DNA from: Ruminococcus sp. | Lineage (GTDB): Bacteria > Bacillota > Clostridia > Oscillospirales > Ruminococcaceae | Length of the DNA: 64,000 nucleotides | Direction of reading: 5' to 3' | Assembly (NCBI GenBank): GCA_017470905.1 | Contig: JAFUXL010000011.1 | Span: 1-64,000 of the forward strand | Made by a program: the position numbers and the translations under genes | The notes under the pieces: model-generated | Databases searched by the model: none | Told to the model about the DNA's origin: nothing | Seen by the model: only the letters and a program-made list of their open reading frames with translations | Shown here: piece by piece, positions 32,493-41,251 of the stretch | Layout of the letters: each line of letters begins with the position of its first letter | How positions within the stretch are numbered: the stretch's first letter is position 1

Positions 32493-32539
32493 AGTCATGC
32501 CTCCTATTGAATTTATATGTCTGTACGACAATTACATTT

Positions 32540-32568
32540 ATTGTACTATATTTTCATAAAAAAGTCAA
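32540..32568 (-). promoter_or_regulatory. Promoter of secDF
   Basis: TTGACT (32568-32563), 17-base spacer, TACAAT (32545-32540), about 48 bases before the secD start. Confidence 0.8.
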
Positions 32569-32664
32569 GTATAAGACGAAAAAATTATCCGTTAAATAAA
32601 AGCAGGCAAGTTATTTTTTGTGTGTTCGCCAGCCTTCGGCAGGCGGAACATATGATTGCCTGAA

Positions 32665-32780
32665 TGAGCATTTTAAAATAACGCAAAAAATTTTTATGCT
32701 TTGTCCTTGTTTCCCCCGTCCCTAAAGGGATTTCCGTTGGTCACCTGCGGCGGAGGAAACATCGCTTTTTGTCATACTTT
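32665..32780. repeat. MITE-like palindromic element, variant with insert
   Basis: Between the secDF promoter and the end of the atp operon. Starts TGAGCATTTTAAAATAACGC, core GTTTCCCCCG...CGGAGGAAAC split by the GTCCCTAAAGGGATTTCC insert, as at 8151. A second small palindrome (GTTCGCC...GGCGGAAC, about 32625-32649) and ATTATGAATTATGAATTATGC copies flank it. Confidence 0.65.
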
Positions 32781-32812
32781 TGAATTATTAATTATGAATT
32801 ATGAATTATGCA

Positions 32813-33223
32813 TTACTTAAAATGTTTCTGGGATACTTTAAGGCGGTTTATTGCACGGTTCAGTGCCGCCTGTGTCTGATAGTATTCCTTTATGCTTTGT
32901 TTTTGCTTCATGAGTTCTTCGGCACGCTGACGGGCTTCTTCGGCACGTTTTATATCTATCTCTTCGGGCAGCTCGCAGGAGTCGGCAAGTATTATCGCCT
33001 TGTCGGGCATTACCTGTATAAATCCCTCCGATATAGCCGCATACAGCCACTTTCCGTCAACCATGTATTTCAGTTCGCCCGTGGGCAGTACGGTGACGAG
33101 AGGCTCATGCCCTGCCATTATGCCGAGCAGACCGTCTATTGCGGTTATGACAAGATGCTCACATTCACCACGGAAAAAAACTCTGTCCGTGGCGATTATT
33201 TCAAGCTGAAAGGTATTAGCCAT
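32813..33223 (-). CDS. atpC: F-type ATP synthase epsilon subunit
   Basis: Regulatory subunit of the F1 rotor. It has 136 residues: N-terminal beta sandwich (FQLEIIATDRVFF, LLGIMAGHEPLVTVLPTG) and a C-terminal helical pair (about 88-136). Last gene of the atp operon; GGGAGG precedes the ATG, 15 bases after atpD. Confidence 0.95.
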   Translation of the reverse strand: MANTFQLEIIATDRVFFRGECEHLVITAIDGLLGIMAGHEPLVTVLPTGELKYMVDGKWLYAAISEGFIQVMPDKAIILADSCELPEEIDIKRAEEARQRAEELMKQKQSIKEYYQTQAALNRAINRLKVSQKHFK

Positions 33224-33237
33224 TCAATATGCCTCCC

Positions 33238-35045
<1,808 letters not shown>

Positions 35046-35049
35046 TGAA

Positions 35050-35958
35050 TTATTCCTCAAGACTGTTTGCGCCGCCTACAACCTCGGTAATTTCCTGAGT
35101 TATAGCCGCCTGTCTTGCACGGTTATAAAGGAGCGAAAGGTCTTTAATCATATCCCTTGCGCTTGTGGTGGCAGCGTCCATAGCTGTCATTCTCGACTGC
35201 TGTTCACAGCAGAAAGCCTCTACCATTGCGCCGTATATTATACCCTTTGCGTATTGGGGAATGAGAAATTCCATAACCTTTTCGGGGGACGGCACAAAAG
35301 AGGCTTTGGGCAGCTTTTTCATAGTACCGTCGGAAGCCTTGCCCATATGTTTCCTCTGAAAGGGCAGAAGCTGAACGGTTCTCGGCTCTTGCAGATTTGA
35401 ATTTACCATATCCGTATATAATAAATACACTTCATCGAGTTCATGGTTTTCAAATTTTTTGAGTACTGTCTGTGCGATTTCCATAGCCCTGTAAAGTGTG
35501 GGGTTCTGGGTGGTATAGAGAAATTCTCCGTCAACGGAGGCTTTTTTATTGTTTCTCATTCGCCGCTGAAAGTACATACGTCCCACCTGACCCATTACAA
35601 AGAGATAGCAGTTGTCAATATCTGCGGCTTCGGCGAGTTTCTGTTCGGCATATTTAAGTATATTATGATTATAGCTGCCGCACAGACCCTTGTCGGCGGT
35701 TATGACGATATATCCCTTTTTTCGTTTTTCTTCGGGGATATTCGTTCGCCTGTCGAAATAAGCCTGTCTTGTATGGGGGGTATGTTCTAAGACACTTTCG
35801 ATGGTTTCCTGCAATTTATAGAAATACGGCTCGGTTGCATCGAGTGATTTTCTTGCCTTTTTAAGCTTTGAGGAGGACATGAGGTACATGGCATTTGTGA
35901 TTTTGAGTATCTGCTGTATGCTTGCAATCCTCTCACGGATTTCTCTCATATTGGGCAT
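35050..35958 (-). CDS. atpG: F-type ATP synthase gamma subunit
   Basis: Central stalk of F1. The 302 residues begin MREIRERIASIQQILKITNAMYLM, the family N-terminal helix, and end with the C-terminal coiled partner (RARQAAITQEITEVVGGA). The middle Rossmann-like domain includes ITADKGLCGSYN. AGGGGTG stands upstream, 11 bases after the delta-alpha fusion gene. Confidence 0.96.
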   Translation of the reverse strand: MPNMREIRERIASIQQILKITNAMYLMSSSKLKKARKSLDATEPYFYKLQETIESVLEHTPHTRQAYFDRRTNIPEEKRKKGYIVITADKGLCGSYNHNILKYAEQKLAEAADIDNCYLFVMGQVGRMYFQRRMRNNKKASVDGEFLYTTQNPTLYRAMEIAQTVLKKFENHELDEVYLLYTDMVNSNLQEPRTVQLLPFQRKHMGKASDGTMKKLPKASFVPSPEKVMEFLIPQYAKGIIYGAMVEAFCCEQQSRMTAMDAATTSARDMIKDLSLLYNRARQAAITQEITEVVGGANSLEE

Positions 35959-35969
35959 AGTGTCACCCC

Positions 35970-37991
35970 TTATTCTTCAAAAGCCGTAACGATTCTTTCG
36001 ATACGTTCGCCGAGGTCGTCCGTCATGACCTTCTTTTCCTCTATTTCTTCGATAATATCCTGACCGTAGCTGCTGATATAATTCATAAGGTCGCAGATAT
36101 ATTCTTTAAGCTCTTTAAGCGGTATATCGTCAAAAAGACCGTGCTGCGCCGCATACAGGAGTATAACCTGTTCGTAGTGCGGCTTTGGATTGTAAAGCGG
36201 CTGTTTGAGCATTTCCGTGAGCATATGACCGTGATTGAGCAGCTCCGTTGTGGACTGGTCAAGCTCCGAGGAAAACTGCGTGAATATTTCCATTTCCTTG
36301 AATTGCGCAAGGTCTATACGGAGATTTCCTGCCGCCTTTTTCATAGCCTTTGTCTGTGCCGCACCGCCCACACGGGATACCGAAAGTCCGTAGTTTACGG
36401 CGGGTCGCTGACCTGAATTGAACAGTTCGCTTTCAAGGAATATCTGTCCGTCCGTGATTGATATTACATTGGTCGGGATATATGCCGAAATATCGCCGGC
36501 AAGGGTTTCGATTACGGGCAGTGCCGTGAGCGAACCTCCGCCGTGTTCATCGTCAAGACGGCTCGAACGCTCCAAAAGTCTCGAATGAAGATAGAAAACA
36601 TCTCCGGGGTAAGCCTCACGTCCGGGCGGACGGTGGAGGAGCAGAGACATGGCACGGTATGCGACAGCGTGTTTCGACAAATCATCATATACTATAAGAA
36701 CATCTCTGCCCTTTGACATGAAATATTCTGCGATAGCCGTACCCGAATACGGCGATATATACTGGAAAGGCGCAGGGTCGCTTGCCGATGCGCAGACAAC
36801 TACAGAATAGCTCATTGCATTGTATTTTTTCAGCGTATTGACTACCTGTGCGACTGTCGAGGATTTCTGTCCTATGGCGACATATATGCATATTACGTCC
36901 TTGTCTTTCTGGTTTATGATAGTATCAATGGCTATGGAAGTCTTTCCCGTCTGTCTGTCGCCTATGATAAGCTCACGCTGACCCCTGCCGATAGGGAACA
37001 TGGAGTCTATCGCAAGGATACCCGTCTGTAGGGGGACGTTTACGGACTTTCTCTCGATAACTCCGGGGGCTTCACGCTCGATAGGGAAGTATTCCTCTGT
37101 TTTTACAGGGCCAAGACCGTCAATCGGTGAGCCGAGGGCATCGACAACTCGTCCGAGGAGTTCGTCGCTTACGCCGATACCTGCCCTCTTGCCCGTTCTT
37201 ATTACGGAAGAACCCTCCGTAAGACCGTGGTCGTCTCCGAGGAGAACGACACCTACGGATTTTTCTTCAAGGTTCTGGACGATACCTCTTACACCCGTTT
37301 CAAATTCAACGAGTTCGCCGTACATTACGCTGTTCATGCCCCTTACTCTTGCGATACCGTCACCGAGCCTTGTAATAAAGCCCGTTTCTGTTTCGCCCGA
37401 TTTGACCTTGAAATCCCTTACCTCTGTTTTGAGGACGGAGATAATGTCATTTTCGCTTACATCATCATCGGCATCGACAATATCGGCAGCCTTTGATTGC
37501 AGGGTATCCTTCATCATGCGCAGGCTTGTGCGGTAACTGCGGTCGTATTCAACATCGCCTGCATTGAGAATAAAGCCGCCCAGAATATCGGGGTCGTGCT
37601 TGTATTCTATGTCAACATCGTCTTTTATGAATTTTTCCTTTATGAATTTCTTGAGGTCAGCCTGCTGCGACTCCGTAAGGGGAGTGACATAGCGTACAAC
37701 GGCTTTTATAACACCCTGTTTTTCGAGGAGAATATCGGAATATTCCTCAAATATGCCCGAAAGCTGTTCGACAGCTCTGCCTCTGAGTGAGCTTATGAGA
37801 AATTTTTCGAGGCTCTGGGGAAAAAGTCTTTTGATTATGCCTTTTTTTTCGTCCGTTGTCACGAGGGGATTTGAGAGCGTGTCAATGACATCGGGGCAGG
37901 CGGATATGACATTTTTTGCGGCGTCAATATCCTCCTGCGGAATATCGAGCCTTATAAGCTCCTTTACAAGCTCCTTGCCGTTGTCTTTCAT
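35970..37991 (-). CDS. atpHA: ATP synthase delta-alpha subunit fusion
   Basis: One 673-residue frame combines two F1 subunits. Residues 1-168 match delta/OSCP (six-helix N-terminal domain, then YVTPLTESQQADLKKF and DILGGFILNAGDVEYDRSYRTSLRMM). A linker of about ten residues (IVDADDDVSE) leads into alpha from about 178 (GFITRLGDGIARV at 204-216; P-loop GDRQTGKT 344-351; VSRVGGAAQTKAM). The usual YAxAL motif of the first delta helix is missing. No ATG, GTG or TTG with a ribosome site occurs near the junction; the only weak candidate is ATT (codon 171) after AAAGG. The gene overlaps atpF by ATGA. Since F1 has three alpha but one delta, the fusion poses a stoichiometry problem. Confidence 0.92.
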   Translation of the reverse strand: MKDNGKELVKELIRLDIPQEDIDAAKNVISACPDVIDTLSNPLVTTDEKKGIIKRLFPQSLEKFLISSLRGRAVEQLSGIFEEYSDILLEKQGVIKAVVRYVTPLTESQQADLKKFIKEKFIKDDVDIEYKHDPDILGGFILNAGDVEYDRSYRTSLRMMKDTLQSKAADIVDADDDVSENDIISVLKTEVRDFKVKSGETETGFITRLGDGIARVRGMNSVMYGELVEFETGVRGIVQNLEEKSVGVVLLGDDHGLTEGSSVIRTGKRAGIGVSDELLGRVVDALGSPIDGLGPVKTEEYFPIEREAPGVIERKSVNVPLQTGILAIDSMFPIGRGQRELIIGDRQTGKTSIAIDTIINQKDKDVICIYVAIGQKSSTVAQVVNTLKKYNAMSYSVVVCASASDPAPFQYISPYSGTAIAEYFMSKGRDVLIVYDDLSKHAVAYRAMSLLLHRPPGREAYPGDVFYLHSRLLERSSRLDDEHGGGSLTALPVIETLAGDISAYIPTNVISITDGQIFLESELFNSGQRPAVNYGLSVSRVGGAAQTKAMKKAAGNLRIDLAQFKEMEIFTQFSSELDQSTTELLNHGHMLTEMLKQPLYNPKPHYEQVILLYAAQHGLFDDIPLKELKEYICDLMNYISSYGQDIIEEIEEKKVMTDDLGERIERIVTAFEE

Positions 37992-38545
37992 TTCTTGTCA
38001 CCCTCCTCTGCCGCCGAGAGGAACTCGTCAACAAGTCTGCGGTTTTTTTCGTCATCGAGGTTTGCGCCGACAACCTTGGAGGCTGCTTCGATGGCGAGGT
38101 CGGCAATCTGCGCCTGAGCCTGCTGGAGAACTCTTCTGCGTTCGTTCTCGATTGTCTTGCCTGCGGCATTGACTATTTCCTCGGCTTCCTCCTGAGATTT
38201 TTTAATAATTGCGGCTTTTTCGTTTTCCGCATCATCATGGGCTTTCATGATGATTTTTCCCGCTTCTTCCTTAGCTTCGCTGAGAGAATCCTCATAGTGC
38301 TGTCTTAGCTCCTCGGCTTCTCTTTTTGCCTTTTCAGCGGATTCTATATCATTCCGGACAGACTGTGTTCTGTCGTCCATGAGTTTGTTTATGGGCTTGA
38401 AAAGGAATATTTTGAGAAGTATGAAGAGTATGATTATATTGACGGCTGACCAGATGAAATTCCAGATATTTATATCCAGCATAGTACCATTCAGTACACT
38501 TTCGGCTGCAAATACGGGCATACAAGCGATTGTAGCTGCGGTCAT
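37988..38545 (-). CDS. atpF: F-type ATP synthase b subunit
   Basis: Peripheral stalk subunit. It has 185 residues: a hydrophobic N-terminal stretch (MTAATIACMPVFAAES) that looks like an extra signal-type segment, the membrane helix at about 28-48 (IWNFIWSAVNIIILFILLKIFLF), and a long charged coiled coil to the C-terminus. AAGGAAGG precedes ATG 38545. Its stop overlaps the start of the delta-alpha gene (ATGA). Confidence 0.94.
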   Translation of the reverse strand: MTAATIACMPVFAAESVLNGTMLDINIWNFIWSAVNIIILFILLKIFLFKPINKLMDDRTQSVRNDIESAEKAKREAEELRQHYEDSLSEAKEEAGKIIMKAHDDAENEKAAIIKKSQEEAEEIVNAAGKTIENERRRVLQQAQAQIADLAIEAASKVVGANLDDEKNRRLVDEFLSAAEEGDKK

Positions 38546-38580
38546 TATTATCCTTCCTTTCGGTTAAATTTTTCCTGTTT

Positions 38581-38799
38581 TTATTTGAGCAGGAATATTA
38601 TAAGAATAGCAATAACGAAACCGTAAATTGCGGTAGCCTCTGCGAGTGCGCAGCCGAGAAGAAGAGCCTTGTTTATATCGCCCTTTGCTTCGGGCTGACG
38701 GGCTATGGCATCTGCCGCCTTTGAAGTTGCGATACCTATACCGATACCTGCACCTGCGCCTGTGAGAACTGCAATACCTGCACCTAATGCGATTGACAT
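38581..38799 (-). CDS. atpE: F-type ATP synthase c subunit, copy 2
   Basis: Ring subunit of 72 residues, a helical hairpin with ARQPEAKGDI loop and the ion-binding Glu in GCALAEATAIYG. The protein is identical to copy 1, although the genes differ at many third positions. Helix 1 has Ile where Na+-type rings have Gln, and the residue after Glu is Ala rather than Ser, so the ring is predicted to be proton-coupled. GGAGG precedes the ATG. Confidence 0.95.
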   Translation of the reverse strand: MSIALGAGIAVLTGAGAGIGIGIATSKAADAIARQPEAKGDINKALLLGCALAEATAIYGFVIAILIIFLLK

Positions 38800-38839
38800 A
38801 ATAATTACCTCCGTTTTTCTGCCGTATATGCGGCGATTT

Positions 38840-39058
38840 TTATTTAAGCAAGAAAATTATAAGTATGGCGATAACAAAGCCATATATGGCGGTAGCCTCT
38901 GCGAGTGCGCAGCCGAGGAGAAGCGCCTTGTTTATATCGCCCTTAGCCTCGGGCTGACGGGCTATGGCATCCGCCGCCTTTGAAGTTGCGATACCTATGC
39001 CGATACCTGCGCCTGCGCCCGTAAGAACGGCGATTCCTGCACCTAAAGCGATAGACAT
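38840..39058 (-). CDS. atpE: F-type ATP synthase c subunit, copy 1
   Basis: Same 72-residue product as copy 2, located 40 bases upstream of it. Start ATG 39058 has CGGAGGT upstream; longer frames reach back into atpB and are not used. Having two genes for the same protein may supply the roughly ten c subunits needed per enzyme, or reflect a recent duplication kept uniform by selection. Confidence 0.95.
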   Translation of the reverse strand: MSIALGAGIAVLTGAGAGIGIGIATSKAADAIARQPEAKGDINKALLLGCALAEATAIYGFVIAILIIFLLK

Positions 39059-39080
39059 GATGAATACCTCCGATTTAATA

Positions 39081-39770
39081 TTATTCTGCCTCTTCCATTG
39101 CCTCCGACATAAAGAGCGAGGTAAGGAAAACAAAAACGTATGCCTGAATACAGCCGTCAAAAATATCAAAATAGAAGCTGAAAACGAGGGGAAGTCCCAC
39201 GGGCAGCACCATTTTGATAAGCTCCATTACCACGAAAGCACCCAGAACATTTCCGAAAAGTCGCATACAAAGCGACAGCGGCTTGATGAAAAGTTCGAGG
39301 ATATTCATGGGAATGAGCAGAGCCATTGGTTCTTTGAAGCTTTTCAGCCAGCCTTTAAAGCCCTTTTCCCTCATACCGCTGTACTGTATCAGCAGTATTG
39401 CGAAAACAGCAAGCGTAGCCGTCACGCCCAAATCCTTTGTGGGGGGACGCAGACCGAAAAGTCCGACGATATTTGAAATACCGATGTAAATCAGGAATGT
39501 TTCAAGTATGGGGAGATACTTCTTTCCCTTTGACCCGAGTATTCCGAGGAAAAAGTCATTCATCCAGTTTATGCCGATTTCGAGCAGACACTGTGAGCCT
39601 GTGGGGATTTTTTTGAGCTTTCTCACCATGAGTATTGAAGCGATTACGACAACGAGCATTATTCCCCATGTCATTACACACGACTCGGGAACGGGTATTC
39701 CTCCGAGAATCGGAATTGTGAATGCCACACGGCATTCAAGCTCCTCCATAAGTTTTTGGCCTATATCCAT
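39081..39770 (-). CDS. atpB: F-type ATP synthase a subunit
   Basis: Stator channel subunit, first gene of the atp operon. It has 229 residues and about six membrane helices; the essential Arg is in PLSLCMRLFGNVLGA and the last helix region is FDIFDGCIQAYVFVFLTSLFMSEA. ATG 39770 is chosen for AAGGTG eight bases upstream. A promoter (39902) and a leader hairpin with T-run (39814) precede it. Confidence 0.94.
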   Translation of the reverse strand: MDIGQKLMEELECRVAFTIPILGGIPVPESCVMTWGIMLVVVIASILMVRKLKKIPTGSQCLLEIGINWMNDFFLGILGSKGKKYLPILETFLIYIGISNIVGLFGLRPPTKDLGVTATLAVFAILLIQYSGMREKGFKGWLKSFKEPMALLIPMNILELFIKPLSLCMRLFGNVLGAFVVMELIKMVLPVGLPLVFSFYFDIFDGCIQAYVFVFLTSLFMSEAMEEAE

Positions 39771-39813
39771 AAAAACACCTTCTTTCTGTGGAAATATATG
39801 ATAAAAACACAAA

Positions 39814-39836
39814 AACGGAGACAGTAAATCTCCGTT
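39814..39836 (-). terminator. Terminator-like hairpin in the atp leader
   Basis: On the minus strand AACGGAGA-tttactg-TCTCCGTT followed by TTTGTGTTTTT. It lies between the atp promoter and atpB, so it could be an attenuator; it could also stop read-through from the polysaccharide operon. An upstream CTCCG (around 39854) could pair with CGGAG as an antiterminator. Confidence 0.65.
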
Positions 39837-39901
39837 GATTTAGTCAGGTCGGAGTCAGGCGGCAAATATCAGAGCATCGCACACACTTTTCCGACACTAT
39901 T

Positions 39902-39930
39902 ATAATATAACAAAACGGCTTTAAAGTCAA
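39902..39930 (-). promoter_or_regulatory. Promoter of the atp operon
   Basis: TTGACT (39930-39925), 17-base spacer, TATTAT (39907-39902) overlapping a TATAAT two bases on. Transcription would start near 39895, leaving a leader of about 125 bases. Confidence 0.8.
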
Positions 39931-39957
39931 GCGTTTCGGCAAAATTTCTGAAAAAAA

Positions 39958-40299
39958 TTATTGATTTTCCCCGTTGTTTTCGTTCAGCAGTCTAACAGCC
40001 TTGTCAAGTCTTTCGACAGCGTTCGTGTTCAGCTTGTCGGAAAGGCGCAGGCGGTCGAGTTCCTTTTTGAAAGCGTTCAGCTCACCTGCGATTTTGCGCA
40101 TTATTTCAACGGTTTTAAGGTGTTCTTCTTCGAGGGATTGTATACGCTGCGCAAGGGAATTTATATTTTCGGCGAAAGCCTGATTGACGGCATTTTGTTT
40201 TTCGCCGATTTCGGCAAGCTTTGCGCCCGTCCTGAAAGGGTTCGGCTGCTGACCGTCATAGATTTTCAATTCTTCGTCCGTAAGCCTGTAATCTGACAT
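39958..40299 (-). CDS. Coiled-coil protein of unknown function (113 aa)
   Basis: Not recognised. Residues about 40-105 form a long heptad-rich coiled coil (INSLAQRIQSLEEEHLKTVEIMRKI); the N-terminus is YRLTDEELKIYDGQQPNPF. The start ATG 40299 follows GGAAGTG at nine bases. It is the last gene of the polysaccharide run, 16 bases after rmd, and could be a small regulator or chain-length factor, but nothing in the sequence shows it. Confidence 0.65.
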   Translation of the reverse strand: MSDYRLTDEELKIYDGQQPNPFRTGAKLAEIGEKQNAVNQAFAENINSLAQRIQSLEEEHLKTVEIMRKIAGELNAFKKELDRLRLSDKLNTNAVERLDKAVRLLNENNGENQ

Positions 40300-40315
40300 T
40301 CTGCTCTTCACTTCC

Positions 40316-41251
40316 TTATCGGCAGATTTGATTTCTCCAGTAATCGAGTGTATCTTGTATTGTCTGTTCCATGGATATTTCGGCAGTCCAGCCCGTATCG
40401 GCGAATATCTCCGAAACATCGGGTTCAATTATCGGAATATCCGAGGCTCTCATTTTCTGCGGGTCTTTCTTCACGGATATATCCTTTTCGGAAAAAGAAA
40501 TTGCGGTATCGAGGATATACTGTATGCTGACGGCTTTTCCCCGTCCCACGTTGTATATTTTGCCCGATATGCCCTTTTCGGCAAGAAGTCTGTAGGCACG
40601 CACAACGTCACGCACGTCCGTAAAATCACGCACAGCCGAGAGATTGCCGACAGATATTTCGGGCGGACGGAGATTTTTTTCTATCTCCGCAATCTGACGG
40701 CAGAAATCCGATATTACAAAAATATCCGACTGGCCTGCTCCCGAATGATTGAAAGCCCTCACAGATATTATGTCCGTTTTGTAAGCCCTTGAATAAATTT
40801 TGCTTATCATTTCCTGACAGGCTTTTGTTGCGGCATAGATATTCCCCGGATTAAGCGGTTCGGATTCCCTGAGCGGACAGGCATTTTCACGGATAAAGCC
40901 GTATTCCTCTCCCGAACCAATCATTATGAGCCTTGTATTTTTCAAATTCCTTACGGCTTCGAGGACGTTTATTGCGCCTATGACATTTATTTCCGCAGTA
41001 AGCTGCGGATTTTTCCACGAAAGCGAAACGGAGCTCTGTGCGGCAAGGTGATATATACATTCGGGGGATATTTCCCCTGTAAGCGAAAGCACTGCGTTTT
41101 TATCGGTTATGTCAAGATTTTTTACAGTGCAGCTTTCTTTTATATTTTCGTTTTCGAGACAGGTTGCATAAACCTCATGCCCTGAATTTATCAATTCTTT
41201 TATCAAATATCCGCCGACAAAGCCTGCACCGCCTATTACTAGCGACTTCAT
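40316..41251 (-). CDS. rmd: GDP-6-deoxy-4-keto-D-mannose reductase (Rmd-like)
   Basis: Extended short-chain dehydrogenase of 311 residues: GGAGFVGGYL at the N-terminus, Ser-Gly-Glu-Glu-Tyr region GSGEEYG and the catalytic YxxxK in YAATK. Features such as VRAFNHSGAGQSDIFVISDFCRQIAEIE match Rmd-type reductases that convert the Gmd product to GDP-D-rhamnose. The presence of gmd and manC in the same run supports this; a fucose synthase (Fcl) is longer and differs. ATGA overlap with the upstream glycosyltransferase. Confidence 0.75.
   Translation of the reverse strand: MKSLVIGGAGFVGGYLIKELINSGHEVYATCLENENIKESCTVKNLDITDKNAVLSLTGEISPECIYHLAAQSSVSLSWKNPQLTAEINVIGAINVLEAVRNLKNTRLIMIGSGEEYGFIRENACPLRESEPLNPGNIYAATKACQEMISKIYSRAYKTDIISVRAFNHSGAGQSDIFVISDFCRQIAEIEKNLRPPEISVGNLSAVRDFTDVRDVVRAYRLLAEKGISGKIYNVGRGKAVSIQYILDTAISFSEKDISVKKDPQKMRASDIPIIEPDVSEIFADTGWTAEISMEQTIQDTLDYWRNQICR

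Follow-up and report, generated by a model that had tools for sequence, protein, structure and literature searches.

Textbooks treat it as a constant that each F1 of an F-type ATP synthase has one delta subunit and one peripheral stalk. A 64,000-nt stretch of a Ruminococcus sp. genome (assembly GCA_017470905.1, contig JAFUXL010000011.1, positions 1–64,000, the whole of which is referred to here as the window) raises the question of what becomes of this constant when delta and alpha are encoded as one polypeptide. The gene in question (35,970–37,991, reverse strand) is a single ATG-started frame of 673 amino acids uninterrupted by a stop codon. Its product begins with the delta N-terminal domain (NTD, residues 1–91; 37,719–37,991), which comprises six predicted helices in the model (residues 4–15, 19–31, 34–40, 46–56, 59–70 and 74–91) and is matched by PF00213 from profile position 19. 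It is followed by the stalk-binding delta C-terminal domain (CTD, residues 92–173; 37,473–37,718) with a GGF...D..S core, which is recognized by PF00213 and by alignment with the start of chain I of PDB entry 9jc1, an engineered delta–alpha fusion. A short acidic linker, the length of which differs among species (residues 174–178; 37,458–37,472), leads to the alpha subunit (residues 179–673 and the stop codon; 35,970–37,457). The answer that we develop here, and to which we give an even chance, is that the fusion would tether three deltas to each F1 and likely allow the docking of two or more b2 stalks, each accompanied by an a-subunit of its own.

The domain composition was established by profile searches. 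PF00213 aligned with residues 15–164 (profile positions 19–172 of 172, 91 bits, cut-off 22.3), so both halves of the delta/OSCP domain were matched above the cut-off, and the first 18 profile positions were left unmatched. TIGR00962 (atpA) covered residues 179–672 (model positions 3–498 of 503, 763.3 bits, cut-off 484.45), which identifies an F-type alpha, and the three alpha-subunit Pfam domains lie within residues 203–671. These matches agree with a preliminary description of the locus, made from the letters of the window, that had divided the frame into a full delta/OSCP domain and a full alpha subunit, joined by a short acidic linker. It had further stated that atpB, E, F, G, D and C are separate genes and that the operon has no other delta or alpha gene, which was borne out by Pfam and NCBIfam matches. 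No second PF00213 match was found in the window's own assembly (32 contigs), which is 74% complete, so a free delta or alpha copy could sit in the missing part. An F-type operon without a separate delta gene is also characteristic of the N-type ATPase. The window resembles it in this respect (gene order in PMC5709465; this article, PMC12229609 and PMC4057687 are cited here from parts of their text). The N-type identity was rejected, as the window alpha scored 617.5 against a TIGR03324 cut-off of 750.5 and passed TIGR00962.

The delta–alpha fusion is real. An assembly or sequencing error that conceals a stop and a start at the junction, a concern raised in the preliminary description and left room by the draft, 74%-complete state of the genome, has a practically negligible probability, because the fusion was present as one uninterrupted frame, nearly end to end, in 113 of the 125 genomes of the genus. 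The same conclusion followed from a protein database search: all 120 proteins listed (of 797 matches) paired PF00213 with alpha domains, the combination that the preliminary description had proposed to look for, and several were named Ruminococcus flavefaciens. Subunit b also abutted the fused frame in 54 of 54 full-fusion loci (some fetched twice). Close database relatives were named Ruminococcus sp., with R. flavefaciens at lower identity and one protein named Prevotella/Alistipes; one relative has a database name that starts with 'Multifunctional fusion prote', so automatic annotation already shows the fusion. The remaining 12 genomes of the genus contained cut or broken copies (three genomes: G321, G314 and G329), an ordinary free alpha only (four: G355, G396, G383 and G404) or no close F-type alpha match (five that are 64–82% complete: G311, G323, G348, G373 and G401; best E-values 3e-18 to 1e-31). 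An ordinary F-type alpha occurred alongside the fusion in 11 of the 125 genomes; examples are loci L102 (G325), L103 (G341) and L104 (G340), and in L100 and L101 (G355 and G396) it was the only form. The c subunit of L102 looks, by its motif, to be of the Na+ type.

Outside the genus, the fusion was found in two forms. In samples of 297 genomes of the family, 391 of the class and 398 of the phylum, from which all counts are lower bounds, the full-length form occurred in at least nine family-sample genomes (groups g35, g54, g9 and g110). A shorter form, with frames of 573–671 amino acids in which the query was matched only from residue 83–110 onward, occurred in at least 16. In all eight of the short extensions tested, PF00213 aligned only from profile position 85–111 to about its end (the match of L074 was below the cut-off), and these 'half-fusions' therefore join only the CTD half of delta to alpha. 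One-frame half or full fusions were detected in at least 37 of the 391 class-sample genomes and at least 21 of the 398 phylum-sample genomes, five of which are also in the class sample. In a scan of named genomes, the best 80 of at least 540 relatives' loci comprised 76 half-fusion frames and four frames cut by contig ends. Strains that are not marked as metagenome bins included Anaeromassilibacillus senegalensis An867, Lachnoclostridium sp. An181, Faecalibacterium gallinarum JCM 17207, Faecalibacterium sp. An122 and Lachnospiraceae bacterium NC2008. A protein search listed only three relatives for a half-fusion query and six for an out-of-class query, because it depends on exact words in common.

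The gap between b and the alpha-containing frame was 480–733 nt in 35 of 35 unfused loci, compared with at most 3 nt in the 54 full fusions, and it exceeded 100 nt in only three of 126 loci classed as half-fusions (some loci were fetched twice): L054, which is a full fusion with a missed first start that is tallied here as half and was excluded from the Ruminococcus sets; L136, with an unclear frame and an extension unlike delta, also tallied as half and excluded from the trees; and L150, with a cut b. A delta gene would not fit into the short gap that separates b from the fused frame.

If the half-fusions lack the NTD, it might be hidden elsewhere in their genomes. This was rejected with an NTD-only profile (A5), which gave a match in six of six control genomes that carry the domain (and an E-value of 9e-28 for the window, the row of which is included in the profile) and nothing in 25 of 26 half-fusion genomes, a few of which are 71–90% complete or of unstated completeness. 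The sole match, in G803, was weak and chance-like (E-value 0.007, 43 positions, 81-aa frame). PF00213 agreed with this absence where it was run. It found only the CTD half in A. senegalensis (G806), G066, G218, G287, G539 and G488, among others, and in the single-contig genome G835 and its kin G878 and G979, which belong to another class. Other half-fusion genomes, for example three of Faecalibacterium, hold an ordinary delta elsewhere as well, and G815 gave an odd PF00213 alignment (33–172, two stops). In half-fusion genome G805 (L171), PF00213 found nothing at threshold, so profile searches under-count half-fusions. The absence of the NTD from half-fusion genomes implies that tethering of the CTD makes docking of an NTD dispensable.

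Some further features of the half-fusion operons were observed. For example, in L138:5806–6156, L073:5813–6205 and L075:8802–9224, subunit c is extended at its N-terminus by ∼45–70 residues, which resemble a signal peptide followed by a linker. Subunit a in such operons is long and has only weak similarity to that of the window. The N-terminal helix of alpha is normally bound by the delta NTD. In half-fusions without an NTD, its consensus IIPLIKETVxDW is clear (alignments A2 and A4; residues ∼85–100 of the alpha frames).

In the full-length fusions of Ruminococcus, the NTD is retained and its evolution is altered in specific places. The alpha-binding site of OSCP is formed by helices 1 and 5 of the N-terminal domain (PMC4057687). 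The YAxAL-like motif of helix 1 (Y[AGS]xx[LIVMF] within the first 32 residues), the loss of which had been noted in the preliminary description, was present in none of 39 Ruminococcus rows compared with 31 of 35 separate deltas, in counts in which the window's own row and two separate-delta loci appear twice and some rows are the same locus refetched. Three of the four separate deltas that missed it have C for Y, and the fourth is a mis-started frame. Among other full fusions, the motif was found in zero of five from g35, five of five of the g54 type and three of five others. For pairs with 75–85% alpha identity, Ruminococcus fusions (159 pairs) had identities of 0.26 in helix 1 and 0.20 in helix 5, and separate deltas (45 pairs) had 0.51 and 0.43. 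The two sets did not differ in helices 2, 3, 4 and 6, and the CTD identities were 0.65, 0.69 and 0.47 in fusions versus 0.40, 0.45 and 0.29 in separate deltas. The groove index was −0.07 (bootstrap −0.12 to −0.02) in Ruminococcus fusions and +0.10 (0.05 to 0.17) in separate deltas, and the CTD minus NTD difference was +0.24 to +0.29 and −0.04 to +0.07, respectively. Upon resampling of the sequences, the ranges did not overlap for either contrast. The separate set for the helix identities and the groove index excludes L234 (a mis-assigned upstream frame), L095 (a late delta start) and two loci, L066 and L068, that duplicate L091 and L092. All four are included in the comparison of NTD/CTD ratios at like alpha distance, which were 1.6–3.7 in fusions and 0.97–1.46 in separate deltas, mainly due to a slower CTD. 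Both domains are under purifying selection, with dN/dS of ∼0.16 for the NTD (65 usable of 90 pairs), ∼0.07 for the CTD (87 of 90) and ∼0.05 for alpha (90 of 90), values that are rough as dS is near 1; by this measure the NTD is not dead. The gripping helices 1 and 5 are thus relaxed relative to the other helices, and the stalk-binding CTD is better conserved than that of unfused deltas. A changed mode of docking, which the preliminary description had suspected, is consistent with these signs.

Whether three deltas reach each F1 depends on whether free alpha is also made. Proteolysis or internal initiation could release alpha from the fused gene, which would give an ordinary alpha3 delta1 enzyme with one alpha that keeps its delta and would bring back the usual 3:1 ratio. 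The acidic and variable linker is in keeping with this option, and initiation within a fused frame is a trick available to these bacteria, as shown by two relatives in which gamma and beta share one frame beside a half-fusion alpha (L129:7596–9956(+) in G544 and L130:8115–10499(+) in G670; 786 and 794 aa). These frames have an in-frame ATG at the beta start with a Shine–Dalgarno (SD) duplex of −8.4 and −5.9 kcal/mol, which suggests that free beta is also made; a fusion of rotor and stator would be odd. In the delta–alpha fusions, no conserved internal alpha start with a ribosome-binding site was found by SD duplex energy, either in the 33 Ruminococcus fusions or in the other fused lineages. 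The fusion's own start has an SD duplex of −12.2 kcal/mol in the window (median −12.0 kcal/mol in the 33 Ruminococcus fusions), and separate alpha genes (16, from 14 distinct loci; the cut half-fusion L112 excluded) reach −6.1 to −10.8 kcal/mol at their best start. By comparison, the in-frame ATGs near the alpha start in Ruminococcus (14–26 codons upstream, one at 7) range from +1.2 to −3.8 kcal/mol. GTG codons with values of −6.9 to −7.1 kcal/mol occur within residues 100–215 in five of the 33 loci, at three different positions; in two of these (L045 and L060), the GTG lies seven codons before alpha (−7.1 kcal/mol), which speaks for free alpha and against three tethered deltas. Single loci in other fused lineages (e.g. 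L132, L136, L084 and L119) have a possible internal start, with no common position. A conserved internal start is therefore unsupported, with near-alpha ATGs in Ruminococcus that lack an SD better than −3.8 kcal/mol and with scattered GTGs; the preliminary description had considered rare internal initiation among its routes. Proteolysis would leave the severed CTD of half-fusions without a known hold on F1, and cleavage is unlikely at least in those relatives. Overall, we consider the release of free alpha improbable. In the absence of a conserved ribosome-binding site for an internal start, each F1 should hold three tethered deltas. The stoichiometry problem posed in the preliminary description stands; an option that it did not list is that all three deltas may work at once and serve several peripheral stalks.

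A precedent for such an enzyme exists. The NTD of the ordinary enzyme's one delta seats it on the threefold axis and thereby limits the complex to one stalk (Ueno et al. 2025, PMC12229609). An engineered Bacillus PS3 FoF1 in which delta without its NTD is fused to alpha (deltaDeltaN-alpha) carries on average two, and at most three, b2 stalks and a-subunits, has a H+/ATP ratio of 5.8 instead of 3.0 and makes ATP at about half the proton-motive force (PMC12229609). The same article describes a natural fusion without the delta NTD in Acidaminococcus fermentans, together with UniProt entries G4Q3K6 and A0A1I2C5T3, and proposes that it is a multi-stalk enzyme. The preliminary description had known of no delta–alpha fusion as standard, which needs to be corrected in this respect. 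The best sequence match among PDB chains across the junction of the window protein is chain I of 9jc1, the engineered enzyme, which likewise ranked first when the models of the window protein and of the A. senegalensis half-fusion were compared by fold (TM-scores by query of 0.61 and 0.79). The window model is only fair (mean pLDDT 72, TM-score 0.61), with pLDDT of 74–85 in the NTD block and 59 in the first ten residues, and with an alpha N-terminal helix at residues 180–197 of low confidence (block pLDDT 46–57 at residues 171–200); the half-fusion model has a mean pLDDT of 81.

The window fusion shares with the engineered protein a delta CTD linked to the alpha N-terminus by a short linker and, within the 74%-complete assembly, no free delta or alpha gene. 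The two differ in that the engineered protein lacks the NTD (residues 2–104), whereas the window protein has it with an altered helix 1, and in that multi-stalk assembly has been shown for the engineered enzyme, whereas the window fusion is known from its sequence. The Acidaminococcus protein is likewise a natural delta–alpha gene fusion, with the NTD absent there and present in the window. The natural half-fusions, which also lack the NTD, have the engineered architecture, and the window protein has the same tether plus the axis domain with a relaxed groove. In mycobacteria and Gordonia, delta is also fused to a stator subunit encoded next to it (PDB 7jg5 chain d; PMC5709465), but the partner in this b–delta fusion is b of the stalk instead of alpha. 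The b subunit of the window has a 185-aa frame to itself, which matches PF00430 and not PF00213. The operons of Clostridia without a delta gene in PMC5709465 (Fig. 6B) are probably half-fusions; a delta within alpha is not mentioned in the parts of that article consulted.

We propose the following mechanism. In the ordinary enzyme, the lone delta would hold the seat on the threefold axis through its NTD and thereby restrict F1 to one stalk. In the fusion, the covalent bond to alpha would take over the grip of the NTD, the axis seat would lose importance, and every alpha would offer a stalk-binding CTD on the face that belongs to it, in the manner of the engineered Bacillus PS3 enzyme. Such an enzyme would be expected to have two or three stalks and a-subunits, to work at a raised H+/ATP ratio and to make ATP when the proton-motive force is low. 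This multi-stalk reading is based on the fusion itself, the relaxation of helices 1 and 5, the conserved CTD, the relatives without NTD and the architecture of 9jc1.

A serious rival, which may quite possibly be correct although we would not call it probable, is an enzyme with a single stalk and two idle deltas, in which one NTD sits on the axis, one CTD binds b2 and the fusion serves to guarantee a delta and spare a separate gene. Several observations favor it or weigh against the multi-stalk reading. The whole NTD, which according to Ueno et al. restricts the enzyme to one stalk, is retained under purifying selection, and its overall divergence is not faster in fusions than in separate deltas (e.g. 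0.62 versus 0.61 at an alpha distance of 0.15–0.20). The pairs compared share ancestry, and the 75–85% band is built on few deep Ruminococcus lineages. In the 85–95% band, the contrast is small for helix 1 (0.64 versus 0.70) and persists for helix 5 (0.41 versus 0.62), each with nine separate pairs. Full fusions of g54, g9 and g110 keep both the alpha-gripping motif (5/5) and conserved helices 1 and 5 (two and seven pairs), so the axis seat is not necessarily given up upon fusion. The operon has one a and one b gene, the latter overlapping the fusion by 4 nt, and nothing was seen that would raise the supply of a and b. A structure, a stoichiometry or an activity measurement of a natural fusion did not turn up. 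The window's genome also encodes subunit D of a V/A-type ATPase (G000:C4:151539–152123), so the fused enzyme is possibly not the principal source of ATP and need not be the only rotary ATPase. However, idle deltas do not readily account for relaxation that, within the NTD, falls mainly on helices 1 and 5, the ones that grip alpha, for the loss of the NTD in other fused lineages (not found in 25 of 26 half-fusion genomes) or for the uptake of extra stalks by the engineered, NTD-less fusion unaided (PMC12229609).

The phylogeny of alpha bears on whether such fusions arose more than once. In the alpha-domain tree of 49 rows (29 fused and 20 unfused), a single clade of all fused rows was rejected by the AU test (p 6e-10). 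The Ruminococcus fusions (99/96) are sister to unfused L091, L095 and L096 (joint branch 99/98), and fusions of the g54 type lie among unfused rows (100/99). Half-fusions are found beside or inside full fusions at two places: L087 lies inside the g35 full fusions (100/98), and the full fusions L139 and L140 group with the half-fusions L119 and L123 (93/89). Half-fusions L131, L132, L133 and L135 stand by ordinary enzymes (100/100). A 95-row tree is consistent with these placements; in it, L175 is counted as separate only because its contig starts inside the gene. On the side of Ruminococcus, g35 and the half-fusions, the alpha tree is also compatible with an old fusion that may have been re-split in the unfused sisters (L091, L095 and L096; L092 and L093; L223). 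Overall, the tree points to several origins of the fusion. We make no claim as to their number, because on the Ruminococcus side a history with re-splitting requires roughly the same number of steps as one with repeated fusion. In a broader form of the multi-stalk proposal, which we advance tentatively and hold to be somewhat short of an even chance, Ruminococcus and many other Bacillota would naturally build multi-stalk F-type ATP synthases that evolved repeatedly by delta–alpha fusion, with the full-length form as a living intermediate in which the axis grip is dissolving and loss of the NTD as the end point.

The fused gene lies in an otherwise complete operon, all on the reverse strand, with the order a, c, c, b, delta–alpha, gamma, a 137-aa frame, beta and epsilon. 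Subunit a (atpB, PF00119) is encoded at 39,081–39,812 and is followed by two c genes (atpE, PF00137 for copy 2), copy 1 at 38,840–39,058 (listed as an open reading frame from 39,169, with homology that starts at 39,058) and copy 2 at 38,581–38,799 (72 aa). The tandem copies are almost identical to each other; such tandems were also seen in many Ruminococcus loci and in the unfused sisters L091–L093, and a single c gene in L097, L098, L099, L105 and L106. The b gene (atpF, 37,988–38,545) shares 37,988–37,991 with the fusion, its stop overlapping the fusion start. Downstream of the fusion are gamma (atpG, 35,050–35,958, PF00231), beta (atpD, 33,238–34,650, TIGR01039) and epsilon (atpC, 32,813–33,223, PF02823/PF00401). 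The hydrophobic 137-aa frame between gamma and beta (34,647–35,060) has no Pfam or NCBIfam match. Besides the window's own copy, the fetched loci, many of which stop close to this point, gave a single match (L038), weak and partial. An Rfam scan of 32,500–41,000 gave no match.

By engineering, Ueno et al. showed that the number of stalks is set by the delta NTD, and on the basis of a few sequences they raised the possibility of natural multi-stalk enzymes (PMC12229609). The half-fusion is already in print, as the Acidaminococcus protein and two UniProt entries, and the full-length fusion is new: no description of it turned up in the open-access literature searched, nor any report of how widely it occurs in Ruminococcus, of recurrent origins or of a relaxed groove. 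The parts of PMC12229609 consulted do not contain the wide distribution, repeated origin, full-length form or selection pattern. The full fusion of the genus, together with half-fusions in named strains and in a single-contig genome of another class, provides natural material on stalk number, the H+/ATP ratio and the minimum proton-motive force. It also provides an evolutionary series (unfused, fused with the grip, fused with the grip relaxed and fused without the gripping half) that the engineering work did not have. If the multi-stalk proposal is true, natural fused enzymes would move two to three times more protons per ATP and would set the lowest proton-motive force for ATP synthesis in fermenting anaerobes, a way of life to which ATP synthesis at low proton-motive force would be suited.

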